From positions 1 to 64,000 of the forward strand of contig JAJVHY010000012.1 in assembly GCA_022072455.1 (NCBI GenBank): DNA of 64,000 nucleotides, in the 5' to 3' direction. Under the pieces are notes generated by a model that saw only the letters and a program-made list of their open reading frames with translations, was not told the origin of the DNA and made no database searches. Below are positions 12,202-33,711 of this stretch, one piece after another. The position numbers and the translations under genes were made by a program. The DNA comes from Verrucomicrobiia bacterium. Lineage in GTDB: Bacteria; Verrucomicrobiota; Verrucomicrobiia; Palsa-1439. Position 1 is the first letter of the stretch. Each line of letters begins with the position of its first letter.

Positions 12202-13146
12202 ATGGACTTTCCCGCTCTTGATTTCGGTCGCGTCCGCACCTACCCGCTCCGGGAACGCGATCACACCGTCCACACCACCGACCTCGCCAAGCGGTGGGCC
12301 AAGGGCGGTAGCTTCGGCACTTTTCTCGACTCGCTCCCACGCCTCCTGGCCGGCAATGATTTTCGCGCTCTCGTCGCCGCCACCGTGGCGGCCCACCGAC
12401 AGAAGCGGCCGGTCCTCCTGATGCTCGGCGCCCACGTCATCAAATGCGGCCTGACACCGGTCCTTCTCGAACTTCTCGACCGGGGTCTGATCAACGCCCT
12501 CGCGCTCAACGGGGCCGGGGCAATCCATGATTTTGAAATCGCTCTCATCGGCGCCACCAGCGAAAACGTCCAGCAGGGGCTCGACGACGGCAGCTTCGGG
12601 ATGATTGATGAGACGGGCCAACTCATGAACGCCGCCCTTGCCGACGGCATCCGGCAAGGCATCGGCGCCGGGCGCGCCCTTGGCGAAGCCATCGTCAAAA
12701 GCCGCTACCCACACAAATCCCTCAGCCTCCTCCACCACGGCGTCATCACCAACACCCCGGTCACCGTCCACATCGCCATCGGCACCGACATCATCCACCA
12801 ACACCCGACAACCGACGGCGCGGTTCTCGGTGAGGCGACTTATCTGGATTTCCAAAAATTCACTGCCGTCGTCGCCCAACTCGAAGGCGGCGTGGTCCTC
12901 AACCTCGGGTCAGCCGTCATCCTGCCGGAAGTTTTCCTCAAAGCCCTGACCATCGCCCGCAACCTCGGCCACACCGTTGACCATTTCACCACGGCGACGT
13001 TCGACATGAACCACCACTACCGGCCGATGGAAAACGTCGTCAAACGCCCGACCCACAAAGGCGGCCAGGGATTCTATTTCATCGGCCACCACGAACTCCT
13101 GATCCCCCTCTGGGCCGCCGCCGTGTTGGAGGGCATCAGCAGTTAG
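12202..13146 (+). CDS. Conserved hypothetical, deoxyhypusine-synthase-like fold suspected
   Basis: PVLLMLGAHVIKCGLTPVLLELLDRGLINALALNGAGAIHDFEIALIGATSENV; stop codon lies inside the left arm of the 27-bp inverted repeat. Confidence 0.6.
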   Translation: MDFPALDFGRVRTYPLRERDHTVHTTDLAKRWAKGGSFGTFLDSLPRLLAGNDFRALVAATVAAHRQKRPVLLMLGAHVIKCGLTPVLLELLDRGLINALALNGAGAIHDFEIALIGATSENVQQGLDDGSFGMIDETGQLMNAALADGIRQGIGAGRALGEAIVKSRYPHKSLSLLHHGVITNTPVTVHIAIGTDIIHQHPTTDGAVLGEATYLDFQKFTAVVAQLEGGVVLNLGSAVILPEVFLKALTIARNLGHTVDHFTTATFDMNHHYRPMENVVKRPTHKGGQGFYFIGHHELLIPLWAAAVLEGISS

Positions 13147-13167
13147 TAGATAGCAGTTGGTAGTTAG
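13141..13167 (+). repeat. Left arm of 27-bp imperfect inverted repeat flanking the four-helix-bundle ORF
   Basis: agttagtagatagcagttggtagttag; 24/27 identical to the reverse complement of 13544..13570. Confidence 0.9.
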
Positions 13168-13184
13168 GAGCGAGGGGTATAACT

Positions 13185-13547
13185 TTGAAAATTGAGAAAT
13201 TTCAAGACTTGCTCGTCTGGCAACGCGCCCATCAGTTCGCCCTCCGAACATACCGGCATACGAAAGCATTCCCAGCGGACGAGAAGTTCGGCCTTGTCTC
13301 CCAAATGCGGCGGGCCGCTGTCTCAATCCCGGCCAACATCGCGGAAGGTTTCGTCAAACGCAGTCAAGCCGACAAGATTCGCTACTACAACATCGCGCAA
13401 GGCTCGCTGGAAGAGTCCAAGTATTACCTTGTCCTCGCCCACGACCTTGGCTATTTGAAAGATGTGACGGAAGAAACCGCACAGGCCAACGAAATCGGTC
13501 GCCTTCTCAACGGTCTCATCAACTCCATCGAACGCTCCTCCCACTAA
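13185..13547 (+). CDS. Four helix bundle protein (23S rRNA IVS-type / bAvd-like)
   Basis: KIEKFQDLLVWQRAHQFALRTYRHTKAFPADEKFGLVSQMRRAAVSIPANIAEGFVKRSQADKIRYYNIAQGSLEESKYYLVLAHDLGYL; TTG start. Confidence 0.92.
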   Translation: MKIEKFQDLLVWQRAHQFALRTYRHTKAFPADEKFGLVSQMRRAAVSIPANIAEGFVKRSQADKIRYYNIAQGSLEESKYYLVLAHDLGYLKDVTEETAQANEIGRLLNGLINSIERSSH

Positions 13548-13570
13548 CTTCCAACTACTAGCTACTAACT
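13544..13570 (-). repeat. Right arm of 27-bp imperfect inverted repeat flanking the four-helix-bundle ORF
   Basis: ctaacttccaactactagctactaact; includes stop codon of the four-helix-bundle ORF; partial extra copy cccaactactaac follows. Confidence 0.9.
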
Positions 13571-13585
13571 CCCAACTACTAACCC

Positions 13586-14581
13586 ATGTCCCCCACGCGC
13601 CTTACCACCATCCTCCACCGGTTCGCCGGCCAACACATCCTCGTCGTCGGCGACGTCATGCTCGACCATTTTCTCTGGGGCAAAGTCAACCGCATCTCCC
13701 CCGAAGCGCCGGTGCCCGTCGTCGAAATCCAGCGCGAATCCTCGTTTCCCGGCGGGGCCGCCAACGTCGCCCGCAACCTCCACGCCCTCGGCAGTCGCGC
13801 CACCGTCCTCGGCTGCATCGGCGCCGACGCGGCCGGCCAACAACTTTGTGCCGAACTTCCCGACCACAACCTCGTGGTGGACAGCACGCGCCCGACGACC
13901 GTCAAAACGCGGATCGTGGCGCATCACCAACAAATCGTCCGGTTCGACAAAGAACAAATCCAGCCCCTCACCCCGGCCCTCCAGCGCCAACTCCTGAAAA
14001 ATTTCCAAGCCCAACTCCCCCGCGTCGCTGCCGTGATCTTCGAGGACTACGGCAAAGGCGTGCTCACCCAACCGTTGCTGAACGAGATGCAGCGCCGTGC
14101 CCGCCGCGCCGGCAAAATCACCACCGCCGACCCCAACTCCCGGCATCTCCTGCGCTACACTGGCTTGACCGGCATCACCCCCAATCGGGCCGAAGCCTTC
14201 GCCGCTGCCGGCCTGACGAATACCCCGGCTCTCGATGATGTGCTGGCCGACGATCCGCTCCTGCGGTGTGGAGAACGGTTGCTGCAGCGTTGGAAACCGG
14301 AAAACCTCCTCATCACGCTTGGCGAACACGGGATGTGCCTATTCCGGCGCGGCCAAAAACCGCACCACATCCCAACCGTTGCACAAGAAGTCTTCGATGT
14401 GTCCGGGGCTGGCGATACCGCGATCGCAACATTGACCTTGGCGTTGGCCGCCGGGGCGAACGCGGTCGAAGCTGCCGAAATCGCCAATCATGCCGCCGGC
14501 ATCGTCGTTGGCAAACTCGGCACGGCGACATGTTCGCCGGCCGAATTGGCGCAAAGCGTGCGCCGCCACCGGCACCGTTGA
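13586..14581 (+). CDS. rfaE1: D-glycero-beta-D-manno-heptose-7-phosphate kinase (PfkB family)
   Basis: ILVVGDVMLDHFLWGKVNRISPEAPVPVVEIQRESSFPGGAANVARNLHALG; FDVSGAGDTAIATLTLALAAG. Confidence 0.94.
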   Translation: MSPTRLTTILHRFAGQHILVVGDVMLDHFLWGKVNRISPEAPVPVVEIQRESSFPGGAANVARNLHALGSRATVLGCIGADAAGQQLCAELPDHNLVVDSTRPTTVKTRIVAHHQQIVRFDKEQIQPLTPALQRQLLKNFQAQLPRVAAVIFEDYGKGVLTQPLLNEMQRRARRAGKITTADPNSRHLLRYTGLTGITPNRAEAFAAAGLTNTPALDDVLADDPLLRCGERLLQRWKPENLLITLGEHGMCLFRRGQKPHHIPTVAQEVFDVSGAGDTAIATLTLALAAGANAVEAAEIANHAAGIVVGKLGTATCSPAELAQSVRRHRHR

Positions 14582-16307: not shown

Positions 16308-16721
16308 TCATTTTGCACTCAACTTTCGCTGTATCTTCCTAACACAGCTTGCCGGTGATCTCACAAGTTCATGCTCCCAAACGCGGACGACGCGCCAGCC
16401 TTTGCGACGGAGCGTCCGGTTCACCACGCGGTCACGCGACTGGTTGTTGGTAAGTTTCTTTTTCCAGAACGCCCGGTTGTTCACCGGCATGTTTGCGTGC
16501 TTCGGGCACGCATGCCAGAAACAGCCATCCACAAACACGGCAACACGCGCGGCAGTAAAAACAAAATCTGGTCTGCCGAATACCGGCTGATTCCGCCGCC
16601 AACCGGTGACGCGATGTTTACGGAACAGTCCGGCCAGCGCTAATTCCGTGTCCTTATTGCCGCGCCCGCGAATCCGCGACATTACTTCGGAACGCTTGCG
16701 CTTGGTGAAAACATCAGGCAT
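16308..16721 (-). CDS. vsr: Very short patch repair endonuclease (DNA mismatch endonuclease)
   Basis: MPDVFTKRKRSEVMSRIRGRGNKDTELALAGLFRKHRVTGWRRN..GRPDFVF..VAVFVDGCFWHACPKH..FWKKKLTNNQSRDRVVNRTLRRKGWRVVRVWEHEL. Confidence 0.95.
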   Translation of the reverse strand: MPDVFTKRKRSEVMSRIRGRGNKDTELALAGLFRKHRVTGWRRNQPVFGRPDFVFTAARVAVFVDGCFWHACPKHANMPVNNRAFWKKKLTNNQSRDRVVNRTLRRKGWRVVRVWEHELVRSPASCVRKIQRKLSAK

Positions 16722-16932
16722 TCAAGCCCGCCAGCTTTCTTTCGTGGATTATTCGCGCTTTGCACGCTTGATACGGATAAAGCTCGTTGTCGGTAATTGT
16801 CCCGGCACCGCGTCGCCGGAATGCCTCGCTGGCAAGTGGCTTCAACGCCTTCGGCCAGCCACTGCCGCGCGACTCGTAACCGTCGGGATGAAGACCCGGA
16901 TAGAGCCATGACACGGAACACCACGCGCGCAT
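16714..16932 (-). CDS. Small ORF overlapping the vsr start (possible frameshifted partner with 16682..17035)
   Basis: Ends LNA* with aATGccTGA overlapping vsr ATG; alternative frame overlaps ORF 16682..17035. Confidence 0.35.
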   Translation of the reverse strand: MRAWCSVSWLYPGLHPDGYESRGSGWPKALKPLASEAFRRRGAGTITDNELYPYQACKARIIHERKLAGLNA

Positions 16933-17079
16933 GAAAAACTTTCTTGGGGAGAGTTCGCACCCGGCTGTCCACTACTTCCGAGAGGTGCCGCTTTGCCGAG
17001 ACTTCGGACGGTGGAATATAGATGTAATCCTTCATGGCGAAAACTCTACCAGGGCGAGTTGGATTTGCCAGGAAGAAAA

Positions 17080-17793
17080 TCAGATTATTTTCGCTCTGCG
17101 CCAGCGGGCGATGGCGGGGTCGAGATGGTCGGTAAAGAAGTCCTCAAAGGAGATTATGTTTGGCGCGTCCTGGTATACCGGATTGGACTGTTTCAGTGTT
17201 CTTGGAACGACCATGTAGATTCGATTGGCTAGCATCTCTTCCGCTTGATTGGCACTGATCCCGCCGTCAAGCGTCGCCAAAAAAAGCCCCTTACCTCTGA
17301 CACCTTCGGTTGCAATTTGCCGCCACCGTTCACGCAATGTGCGTTTGGCCGTGAAAATAATGCAGTCAGGCGCGTTCTTGCGGTAGTGCGCTTCGGAGGG
17401 CATCAGGAAATCAGGCTTTCCATTTATGATGCACTGCTCCTCAAATGGGTAGTCGCAACGTCTGAACAAGCCCTTGATAGTTTCCTCGAAAGTTTTCCCA
17501 GCTCTTGTCCGCCTAGATTGCGTGAGTGAGAGGAAGAACGAATTGAGTTCTTCAAAGACCGGCTGGTTGCCATGCGTCCTGCAAAACTCACTCAGAAGCT
17601 CCTCACCAAGCTCCAATTGCTTCTGTAAATAAATATCGTAGCCTACTTTCTCAATCTCCAGAGTCAGAGCACTGAAGTTCTGCCGTAGAGTCACCGGCGA
17701 GTCACCCTTCTTTGAAGCCAGTCGCTTTGCAGCAAGTTCGGCTATCTCTTCAACTGTTGGCATTCGTCTCTTGAATTGGCTGAACAGTGACAT
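17080..17793 (-). CDS. Type II restriction endonuclease, EcoRII C-terminal domain-like
   Basis: QSRRTRAGKTFEETIKGLF..GKPDFLMPSEAHYRKNAPDCIIFTAKRTLRERWRQIATEG..LFLATLDGGISANQAEEM matches my recollection of the EcoRII-C catalytic region; adjacent to a 5mC methylase. Confidence 0.82.
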   Translation of the reverse strand: MSLFSQFKRRMPTVEEIAELAAKRLASKKGDSPVTLRQNFSALTLEIEKVGYDIYLQKQLELGEELLSEFCRTHGNQPVFEELNSFFLSLTQSRRTRAGKTFEETIKGLFRRCDYPFEEQCIINGKPDFLMPSEAHYRKNAPDCIIFTAKRTLRERWRQIATEGVRGKGLFLATLDGGISANQAEEMLANRIYMVVPRTLKQSNPVYQDAPNIISFEDFFTDHLDPAIARWRRAKII

Positions 17794-17804
17794 AAGGCCT
17801 TTCG

Positions 17805-18902
17805 TTAGTGATGTCGGCGACGCTCGTTCACTTGGAGAACAAGGTCGGGCTTGTACTCGGCCGGTTGTTGAAGAGTCTCAACAATCGCCTTAGCTACGCG
17901 CTCAACCACTGGCACAACAACAGAGTTTCCAAATTGGCGGTACGCTTGTGTATCGGACACGGGAATCTTGAAACTTGGCGGATAACCCAAGAGGAGCGCA
18001 CACTCTCTTGGTGTCAGTCGGCGCGGGTTCTTTCCCGCACCTTGTGAAATAAGAATCTCTGAGCCGTCTTTGTAGTACCGCGCGCTCAATGTCCGCGTCA
18101 CGCTCTCGCCGGTAACGAGCCCGAATCCAAAACCGTTTCCCGCCGCTTTGTGCTTGGCGGCGTAATTCTGCAAATACTCCCACAGATGATCCGTCAGCGT
18201 GTACTTGGCGGGTGGGTGTGGGTCGAGGATGGAGGCAAGTTTTGGACCTTCTTTTGGGAACTGCGGAAACTCGAAGTAGCGGTGCGTATCAAACCCGACG
18301 ATGAAAATGCGTTCCCGGTGCTGCGGCACGACCGACTGCGCGTCGATGATTTTGTGATAAACGGTATAGTCGAGGTCGTCGGTGAGCGTCTTGTGGATGA
18401 CCTGCCACGTGCGGCCTTTGTCGTGGTTCTTCAGGTTCTTGACGTTTTCCAGCAGGAAGGCGCGCGGGCGACGGTCGCGAATGATCCGCGCCAGTTCAAA
18501 GAAGAGATTGCCCTGTTTCTTTTCGTCGAAGCCGTGCGCCTCGCCGAGGGCGTTCTTCTTGGAGACGCCGGCAATGCTGAATGGCTGACAGGGGAAACCG
18601 GCGCAGAGAATGTCGTGGGCTGGAATCTCCGATGAGGCCACGGCGCGAATATCGCCGACCGGTGTTTCACCAAAATTCGCCGCGTAGGTGATCTGGGAGT
18701 GCTTATCCCAGTCGCAGGAGAAGACGCATTCACAGCCGGCCCGCTCAAACGCGAGCCGAAATCCGCCAATGCCGCTGAATAAATCCACAAAGCGTAACGG
18801 CACAGCCGACGGCAGTGGTTGAGCCCCATAAATCGTATCCTGCTCGCGAACTCTGTTCGCGGCGTTCTTGCCGGGTCGGATTTTCTTCTTTTGGGTGCTC
18901 AT
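17805..18902 (-). CDS. DNA (cytosine-5)-methyltransferase, Dcm-like
   Basis: [106 protein letters not shown]. Confidence 0.95.
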
Positions 18903-26086: not shown

Positions 26087-26425
26087 TCAGCAACCGGTCA
26101 GCGTGGCCGGCCCGATGACGCTCGCGACCACAATCCCATTCACGCTAACTCCGGCCAAACCCAACTCCCCCGCCGTCCCTTTCGCCTGCTTGGCGTTGTC
26201 CGTCCGCTCCACCACCACAACTTTCGAACTTGGGTTGTTCGTGTTCGCATCACTGGCCGTCACCACAATCATATTCGTCCCCGGCTCCAGCGGCAGCAAA
26301 TACCCAAAAACCTCACCCCGCCGGTTCATCTCAATCGCTGTCCCGCCATTCACGGACGCACTGACGACTGATGACTGTCCACTCACCTTCCCCTGCACCC
26401 ACACTTCCGGCTGGTCCGGGACCAT
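26087..26425 (-). pseudogene. Fragment of a secreted Ig-like/bacterial surface protein
   Basis: VWVQGKVSGQSSVVSASVNGGTAIEMNRRGEVFGYLLPLEPGTNMIVVTASDANTNNPSSKVVVVERTD without signal peptide; lies in rearranged region. Confidence 0.4.
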
Positions 26426-32002: not shown

Positions 32003-33640
32003 TTATCGTTCGACGTACCGCTGGGCAATCGGGACGCGGCGGCCGATGCCGAAGGCTTTGGTGGTGACGCGCAAGACCGGCGCGGCTTGCTTGCGTTTGT
32101 ATTCGTTGAGGTCAATCTTGCGGACGATGTCGCGCACCAGTTTTTCGGAGTAGCCGGTTTCTTCGACGATTTCAGCGGCCGATTTGGCTTCTTCGACGTA
32201 GCGCTTGAGGATCGCGTCGAGGATTTCGTACGGCGGCAGGCTGTCCTGATCGGTCTGGTTGGGACGCAATTCGGCGCTCGGCGGCTTGGTGATGCTGGCG
32301 GTCGGGATGATCTCGCCGGTGCGGTTGATGTACCCGGCCAGCTCGTAGACCATCGTCTTCGGCACATCGGCGATGACACCAAGGCCGCCGTTCATGTCGC
32401 CGTACAGCGTGCAGTAGCCGACGGCAAGTTCGCTCTTGTTGCCGGTGGTGAGGAGCATGTGGCCGAATTTGTTCGAGATGGCCATCAGCGTGGTGCCGCG
32501 GATGCGGGCCTGCATGTTTTCTTCGGTCGTGTCCTCCGGCAAGCCGTGGAAAAGGTCACGGAAGCCAGCTTTGAATGTTTGGAAGGCTTCTTGAATCGGG
32601 ATCACTTCGTACCGGATGCCGAGGTTGGCGGCGAGTTGCCGGGCGTCGTCCCGGCTGCCTTGCGAGGAGAACTGCGAGGGCAACGAGATACCCATGACGT
32701 TTTCTTTGCCGAGCGCGGTGACGGCCAGGCAGGCGGTAACCGCCGAGTCAATCCCGCCACTCAGACCGAGCACAACGGATTTGAAGCCGCATTTCTCAAC
32801 GTAATCACGCAGTCCAAGGACCAAGGCGCCGTGGAGGTATTCAATTGGGGAAAAGTTTGAAGGCTGAGCGATGAAGGCGGAAGTCGGAATCTCCACCAGC
32901 ACGAGGTCTTCGCGGAAAGCAGCGCCTTGGGCGAGCAGGTTGCCGGCGGCGTCGAAGGCAAGGCTTTGACCGTCGAAAATGAGTTCGTCATTGCCGCCGA
33001 CCAGGTTGCAGTAAACCAACGGCGCTCCTTGCCGGATGGCGACGGCGCGCAGGAGGTCGGCCCGGGTGCGTTCTTTGCCGAGGTGGAACGGGGACGCGGA
33101 GAGGTTGAGGATCAGGTCCACGGGACCGAACTGCGCGACCGGATCGTGGGAGTACCGGCGGACTTGCCAGTAGCCTTGCGCGTTCCAGATGTCTTCGCAA
33201 ATCGTGACGGCAAGTTTCCGCCCGGCCAACTCGACGATGGGATTGGAGTCGGCAGGTTGGAAGTATCTGTCTTCGTCAAAGACATCGTACGTCGGCAACA
33301 GTGTCTTGCACCGGCGGGCGACGATTCGGCCGCGGTGAATCATGGCCGCGGCATTGAAGTAATCGCGGCCAGGCCGGTGGGGATTGAAATCCACGTAGCC
33401 GGTCAGCAGGGCCGTATCGCCAATGTGACCGGTCAGTTCTTCGAGGGCGTGGAGGTTGTCGGCAACGAACCGGCGTTTCGCCAGCAAGTCACGGGGCGGA
33501 TAGCCGGTAATGGCCAGTTCGGGCGTGACGACCAACTCCGCCCCTGCCGCCACCGCGCGCCGGTAAGCGTCGAGGATGCGCGCCGAGTTGCCGCGCAGGT
33601 CACCGACGGTGGTATTGAGTTGGGCCAAAGCCAAACGCAT
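32003..33640 (-). CDS. nadE: Glutamine-dependent NAD+ synthase
   Basis: Nitrilase-like N-term MRLALAQLNTTVGDLRGN; LGLSGGIDSAVTACLAVTALG; ATGNKSELAVGYCTLYGDMNGGLGVIADVPKT. Confidence 0.95.
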   Translation of the reverse strand: MRLALAQLNTTVGDLRGNSARILDAYRRAVAAGAELVVTPELAITGYPPRDLLAKRRFVADNLHALEELTGHIGDTALLTGYVDFNPHRPGRDYFNAAAMIHRGRIVARRCKTLLPTYDVFDEDRYFQPADSNPIVELAGRKLAVTICEDIWNAQGYWQVRRYSHDPVAQFGPVDLILNLSASPFHLGKERTRADLLRAVAIRQGAPLVYCNLVGGNDELIFDGQSLAFDAAGNLLAQGAAFREDLVLVEIPTSAFIAQPSNFSPIEYLHGALVLGLRDYVEKCGFKSVVLGLSGGIDSAVTACLAVTALGKENVMGISLPSQFSSQGSRDDARQLAANLGIRYEVIPIQEAFQTFKAGFRDLFHGLPEDTTEENMQARIRGTTLMAISNKFGHMLLTTGNKSELAVGYCTLYGDMNGGLGVIADVPKTMVYELAGYINRTGEIIPTASITKPPSAELRPNQTDQDSLPPYEILDAILKRYVEEAKSAAEIVEETGYSEKLVRDIVRKIDLNEYKRKQAAPVLRVTTKAFGIGRRVPIAQRYVER

Positions 33641-33682
33641 TGTGGGCGAAGTGTAAGGATTCCCGGCGGAAAAGCCAGCCGC

Positions 33683-33711
33683 TTGCGTTTTGAGCGAAAT
33701 CGGTCTATTAT
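33683..33711 (+). promoter_or_regulatory. Putative sigma70-type promoter for hsp20 gene
   Basis: TTGCGT - 17 nt - TATTAT upstream of 33735 in the divergent nadE/hsp20 intergenic region. Confidence 0.45.

Follow-up and report, generated by a model that had tools for sequence, protein, structure and literature searches.

Between two protein-coding genes of the window, the whole 64-kb stretch of DNA analysed here, lies a unit of 430 nt in total, in which inverted arms surround an ORF of 120 codons. The features of the locus are as follows:

12202..13146, + strand: upstream neighbour, a GSU2086-family protein gene (NF052581, E 1.6e-126), whose TAG stop comes from the left arm
13141..13167, + strand: left arm, the heptad array AGTTAGT-AGATAGC-AGTTGGT-AGTTAG (repeat search; the lag-7 array spans 13138-13165)
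13172..13177, + strand: putative Shine-Dalgarno-like GAGGGG, 7 nt 5' of the TTG start (predicted from the sequence)
13185..13547, + strand: four-helix-bundle ORF of the IVP/S23 family (PF05635, TIGR02436), 120 codons, TTG start
13544..13570, + strand: right arm, the inverted copy of the left arm in register, holding the TAA stop of the ORF (repeat search)
13543..13584, + strand: full right heptad array, adjoining the rfaE start codon (direct repeat with a spacing of 21 = 3 x 7; lag-7 array)
13586..14581, + strand: downstream neighbour, with a heptose-7-phosphate kinase domain (rfaE_dom_I; TIGR02198, 3e-109)

A sequence-only reading of this DNA had proposed 24/27 inverted arms around a 23S-IVS-type ORF, and both were recovered. 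An independent repeat search paired 24 of the 27 nt of the arms (89% complementary), while profile searches matched the ORF to PF05635 (23S_rRNA_IVP) at 1.3e-36 and to TIGR02436 at 2.6e-36. Its nearest solved structure is XCC0516 (PDB 2gsc, 9e-19), reported as a homopentameric ring (PMC4990558). As that reading also stated, the left arm provides the stop of the upstream gene (TAG, 13144-13146) and the right arm contains that of the ORF (TAA, 13545-13547). The arms had been described as made of agtagttagtag-like words; the repetition is real, but the rule had been half seen, since the arms are tandem arrays of a degenerate 7-nt word, with a true 7-nt period and inverted relative to each other. 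The right array outruns the pairing arm and ends next to the ATG at 13586. These arms are two of just four lag-7 arrays of at least 15/21 in the window, which, together with the control genes described below, excludes chance. The tightly bounded unit leaves no room for a second gene; no transposase, recombinase or reverse transcriptase was found within it, and the PF05635 ORF is the only one with a family match. Elsewhere in the window, a lone weak heptad-like stretch, ACTGACGACTGATGACTGTCC, occurs at 26360-26387, and a Vsr-like endonuclease, a restriction-endonuclease-like ORF and a C5 DNA methyltransferase, identified by eye, stand in a row on the minus strand at 16308-18902.

The unit fills a gap of 439 nt between the GSU2086-family gene and rfaE. 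The former gene was found in 14 relatives, with rfaE directly next to it in 12. In each of these 12, the stop of the first gene either overlaps the rfaE start (ATGA) or lies at most 12 nt from it. The window unit is an insertion between two genes, as had been suggested, with exact empty sites in relatives. Four more units (L122, L058, L094 and L056) were compared across four species of one other genus. For three of them (L122, L058 and L094), congeners show clean empty sites, with intergenic distances of 4-40 nt; no target-site duplication is visible in the aligned empty sites, whose flanks are 13-17% diverged. At the orthologous junction of L056, G052 carries the complete element, G013 the arms with approximately the last 17 codons (internally deleted), G020 the arms alone and G028 a single array. 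Units decay stepwise to ORF-less hairpins or single arrays. The sequence-only reading would have been refuted by relatives that lack conserved arms, or by arms of low-complexity sequence without empty-site alleles; this is not what was found, as there are empty sites and the arms hardly change from one congener to another. Movement itself was not observed, nor were near-identical copies within one genome (the best same-genome pair reaches 0.78 of the self score), so that, in the absence of target-site duplications as well, recent transposition is not demonstrated.

Some loci depart from the typical structure. In G000:C7:27840-34567 (L006-L009), a 7-kb stretch of an apparent polysaccharide cluster contains three PF05635 units, with L008/L009 frameshifted. 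At 33620-33705 of the same contig (L234), a pseC-like aminotransferase gene is apparently interrupted in frame by an ORF-less hairpin of GAAACCT heptads, a mini-version of the element. The junction occupied by L094 in G028 holds, in G020, an unrelated-looking ORF-less hairpin of 8-9-nt repeats (CACAGAGG type; L279, G020:C77), which may indicate a hot spot.

Genes of the PF05635 or 'four helix bundle protein' type are common in bacterial genomes, and to our knowledge they have had no agreed function outside rRNA so far. We oriented 97 PF05635 loci from the window's own genome and its relatives (same class) and aligned each 5' flank to the reverse complement of the 3' flank. Arms of the heptad kind were present at 78 of the 97, with a median alignment score of 16.5 for cognate versus 7.5 for non-cognate flanks. 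Windowed lag-7 identity averaged 15.1/21 and 14.9/21 in the two flanks, versus 9.2-9.4 in the ORF, distant flanks and shuffles. The best period was 7 in most loci, with 8 as the main secondary period, and at many loci the left and right arms are matched unit for unit, beyond their common word. Over 152 loci, the median arm measures 29 nt and the median element 457 nt.

The same arrangement was found well outside this class. In an independent scan of GTDB contigs, with loci picked by protein similarity only, 74 of 80 had arms at a score of at least 13. The 80 loci came from Acidobacteriota, Planctomycetota, Chloroflexota, Patescibacteria, Bacteroidota, Cyanobacteriota, Elusimicrobia, Proteobacteria and others, and one of the 80 lies on a Woesearchaeota contig. 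Arms were also present in 20 of 21 copies on viral contigs, in each of the six copies studied on plasmids (five from cyanobacteria, one from Azospirillum) and in most loci of a further phylum-wide PF05635 set; redundant loci between the sets (for example L047/L160, L075/L156 and L166/L167) slightly inflate these counts. Among control short genes, 1 of 152 reached a score of at least 13; in total, 154 short genes in 1.16 Mb included three at this level, namely two elements and one chance match. The latter (control ORF C1:122640, score 13) was rejected as an element, its match being a non-repetitive 13-nt coincidence. In the 764 kb scanned of the window's own genome there are 11 strong lag-7 arrays, most of them at PF05635 loci. 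The G028 genus, by contrast, contains many heptad arrays alone or as short hairpins, away from PF05635 genes (G028:C16:1-400000, L284-L303), so that heptad arrays are not everywhere confined to the element.

Several other identities were considered. A phage origin was rejected, as a tblastn search of INPHARED gave no match and 21 IMG/VR contigs compare with at least 586 matches in genomes. So was a known defence gene, with no match in PADLOC. Positions 12900-13800 had no Rfam match at E up to 1, and four conserved 23S motifs were absent from 177 loci. Our literature search, which covered open PMC papers, turned up no account of PF05635 genes bracketed by heptad arms.

The sequence-only reading had expected other four-helix-bundle ORFs of the genome to carry the same arms. 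Arms are indeed present at these loci, but their words differ from one locus to the next, and what they have in common is the 7-nt periodicity; a terminal inverted repeat sequence common to all genome copies was accordingly rejected. Word similarity climbs with protein similarity, from 0.22 where the latter is low to 0.44 at 0.6-0.75 and 0.81 above, a correlation reached in 0 of 500 Mantel permutations and seen on the same strand only. Close proteins in different phyla have a common core word, as in the CAGGAGTCAGAAT-like arms of Verrucomicrobia, Ignavibacteria and Nostoc plasmids, and AGTAG/TTAGTAG words are frequent in the nearest relatives of the window protein. Since words track protein lineage across phyla, the ORF and its arms travel together. 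Stop codons in all three frames, considered as the cause of the 7-nt unit, showed a weak excess only, and this candidate was rejected. Within G034, L083, L084 and L085 have related proteins and the same word family; the arms of L085 are reversed in strand with respect to the ORF, which looks like an inversion of either the interior or the arms.

The ORF is under purifying selection at the protein level, with dN/dS of 0.07-0.18 in ten pairs (about 0.1). In copies inherited vertically, values as low as these could mean that the gene serves the host and not itself. In some orthologous units the arms have hardly diverged, with 0/33 changes on both sides at an ORF dS of 0.53, and one arm change between orthologous units is the loss of exactly one 7-nt unit. 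In a more diverged pair (L062/L087), a quarter of the arm positions differ.

Placement relative to the neighbouring genes is also regular. Both neighbours are co-oriented with the ORF at 92 of 145 loci and both opposed at 4. The left arm begins a median of 3 nt past the upstream stop and ends approximately 15 nt 5' of the ORF start; the end of the ORF falls at or within the right arm, which itself ends a median of 12 nt before the next start. This sense bias, together with the stop/start placement, suggests that the unit probably relies on operon transcription. On a plasmid of Picosynechococcus PCC 7003 (L211, 2501-2857), the cas10 and cmr3 genes of a type III-B CRISPR (Cmr) operon are separated by a unit with 8-nt arms. 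At L049 and L077, the frame of the four-helix-bundle ORF continues across the right arm and is fused to that of a prepilin-like gene.

These features could also be explained at the RNA level, by an IVS-type element whose arms form a dsRNA stem in the operon transcript, where RNase III cuts it out, and which spreads via RNA copied back to DNA. The protein family, arm length and total size agree with rRNA IVSs, the arms are matched in register, and the sense bias is extreme (92:4), although a need for operon transcription explains that bias as well. Folded as RNA, the unit gives one structure closed by the arms (-136.6 kcal/mol, z -2.36), the single stem that the sequence-only reading had foreseen. 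However, G.U pairs on the sense transcript are not favoured among the arm mismatches (143 versus 188). We take this to speak against a sense-RNA helix being maintained and to fit an inverted repeat at the DNA level. The likeness to rRNA IVSs drawn in that reading thus extends to ORF family, arm length and total size, but not to a selected sense-RNA stem. Furthermore, RVT_1 (PF00078) had no match in the window's own genome (95.6% complete), so that a resident reverse transcriptase is not required for the presence of the unit. Nor did it match in G013, G020, G028 and G052, which hold several element copies, or in G029 and G032, and a reverse transcriptase acting in trans was rejected. The sense bias and the foldable stem lend the RNA-level explanation some weight, and we regard it as unlikely.

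Less likely still is that nothing has moved, and that a host-beneficial small operon gene has gained heptads in its flanks by polymerase slippage. The strong purifying selection and the standalone arrays in G028 would fit, and in many genomes no long simple repeat is commoner than the heptad (PMC4679880, PMC4692102). Slippage, however, yields direct repeats, not inverted arrays matched unit for unit around one gene family; moreover, other short genes are without such arms, and the empty sites are clean. An origin as the Avd-like accessory of a diversity-generating retroelement, now separated from its reverse transcriptase, is disfavoured and very improbable: the similarity is weak (DivGenRetAVD 1.7e-9, below cut-off; PHROG Avd 5.3e-13), no reverse transcriptase was detected in the genome, and the two loci above the Avd cut-off lack heptad arms.

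The unit is best read as a compact transferable element with the layout of an rRNA IVS but free-standing and with heptad ends. We consider it probable that it represents a very widespread compact mobile element, a heptad-bracketed IVP/S23 gene inserted in sense at operon stop/start junctions. The element consists of a four-helix-bundle gene (IVP/S23, Avd-superfamily) between inverted arrays of a degenerate 7-nt, sometimes 8-nt, word; the copy in the window inserted, in the sense direction, where the stop of one gene meets the start of the next in a two-gene operon. The host operon would then transcribe the ORF, with the arms supplying stop codons. The pentameric protein may recognise its own arms, probably as DNA, in the form of double-stranded repeats or of single-strand or cruciform hairpins. 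This recognition could maintain the unit and help it to move with host enzymes, which would do the cutting and joining. A ring that binds its own heptad arrays might also be the reason why word and protein lineage stay coupled.

A broader proposal is more tentative, and we lean slightly against it: free-standing IVP genes across bacteria and at least one archaeal contig may form a large new class of mobile elements without a transposase, with heptad ends recognised by the pentameric IVP ring and a word for each lineage. The rRNA IVSs, cyanobacterial STRRs and other heptad hairpins would then be rRNA-resident or ORF-less members of the class. With one fixed anatomy shared by copies from many phyla, a gene so far scattered and hypothetical becomes an element that can be defined by its ends, its empty sites and its path of decay. 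This anatomy also suggests where the heptanucleotide repeats of several bacteria, reported so far without explanation, may have come from.

Among known systems, the 23S rRNA IVSs with an S23p/IVP ORF (Coxiella, Leptospira) share with the unit PF05635, inverted terminal arms of approximately 28 nt, a total of about 430-450 nt, an ORF that fills the loop and a patchy distribution; the Coxiella IVS has a 28-bp stem and measures 428-444 nt (PMC4990558). The unit has the IVP/S23 four-helix-bundle ORF and complementary ends able to form one long stem, but it is located between the GSU2086-family and rfaE genes rather than in a 23S gene, and the arms of free-standing units are locus-specific heptad arrays, known here for these units alone. 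Avd proteins of diversity-generating retroelements belong to the same four-helix-bundle superfamily; here, however, no reverse transcriptase was found, the window ORF scores 37.9 bits against the Avd model NF033474 (cut-off 80), and the two high-scoring Avd-like loci sampled have no heptad arms. The heptanucleotide STRRs and SSRs (Nostoc, Calothrix, Xanthomonas GGGAATC, Beggiatoaceae TAACTGA) are likewise intergenic seven-base tandem words, and element copies on Nostoc plasmids carry GGGAACA and CAGGAGT words. Inverted heptad pairs have been reported in Xanthomonas (PMC4692102). These repeats are described as ORF-less with one genome-wide word, whereas here an inverted pair brackets one gene family with a word for each locus; the open PMC papers we found on cyanobacterial, Xanthomonas and Beggiatoaceae heptads draw no link to a PF05635 gene. 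Finally, MITEs and IS elements with terminal inverted repeats have inverted ends, empty sites and ORF-less derivatives in common with the element, which differs in having no transposase, in showing no target-site duplication at flanks that are 13-17% diverged, and in ends that are repeat arrays whose sequence differs between copies. A mobile element that lacks a recognisable recombinase and has ends matched to each other yet specific to each copy would be mechanistically new.
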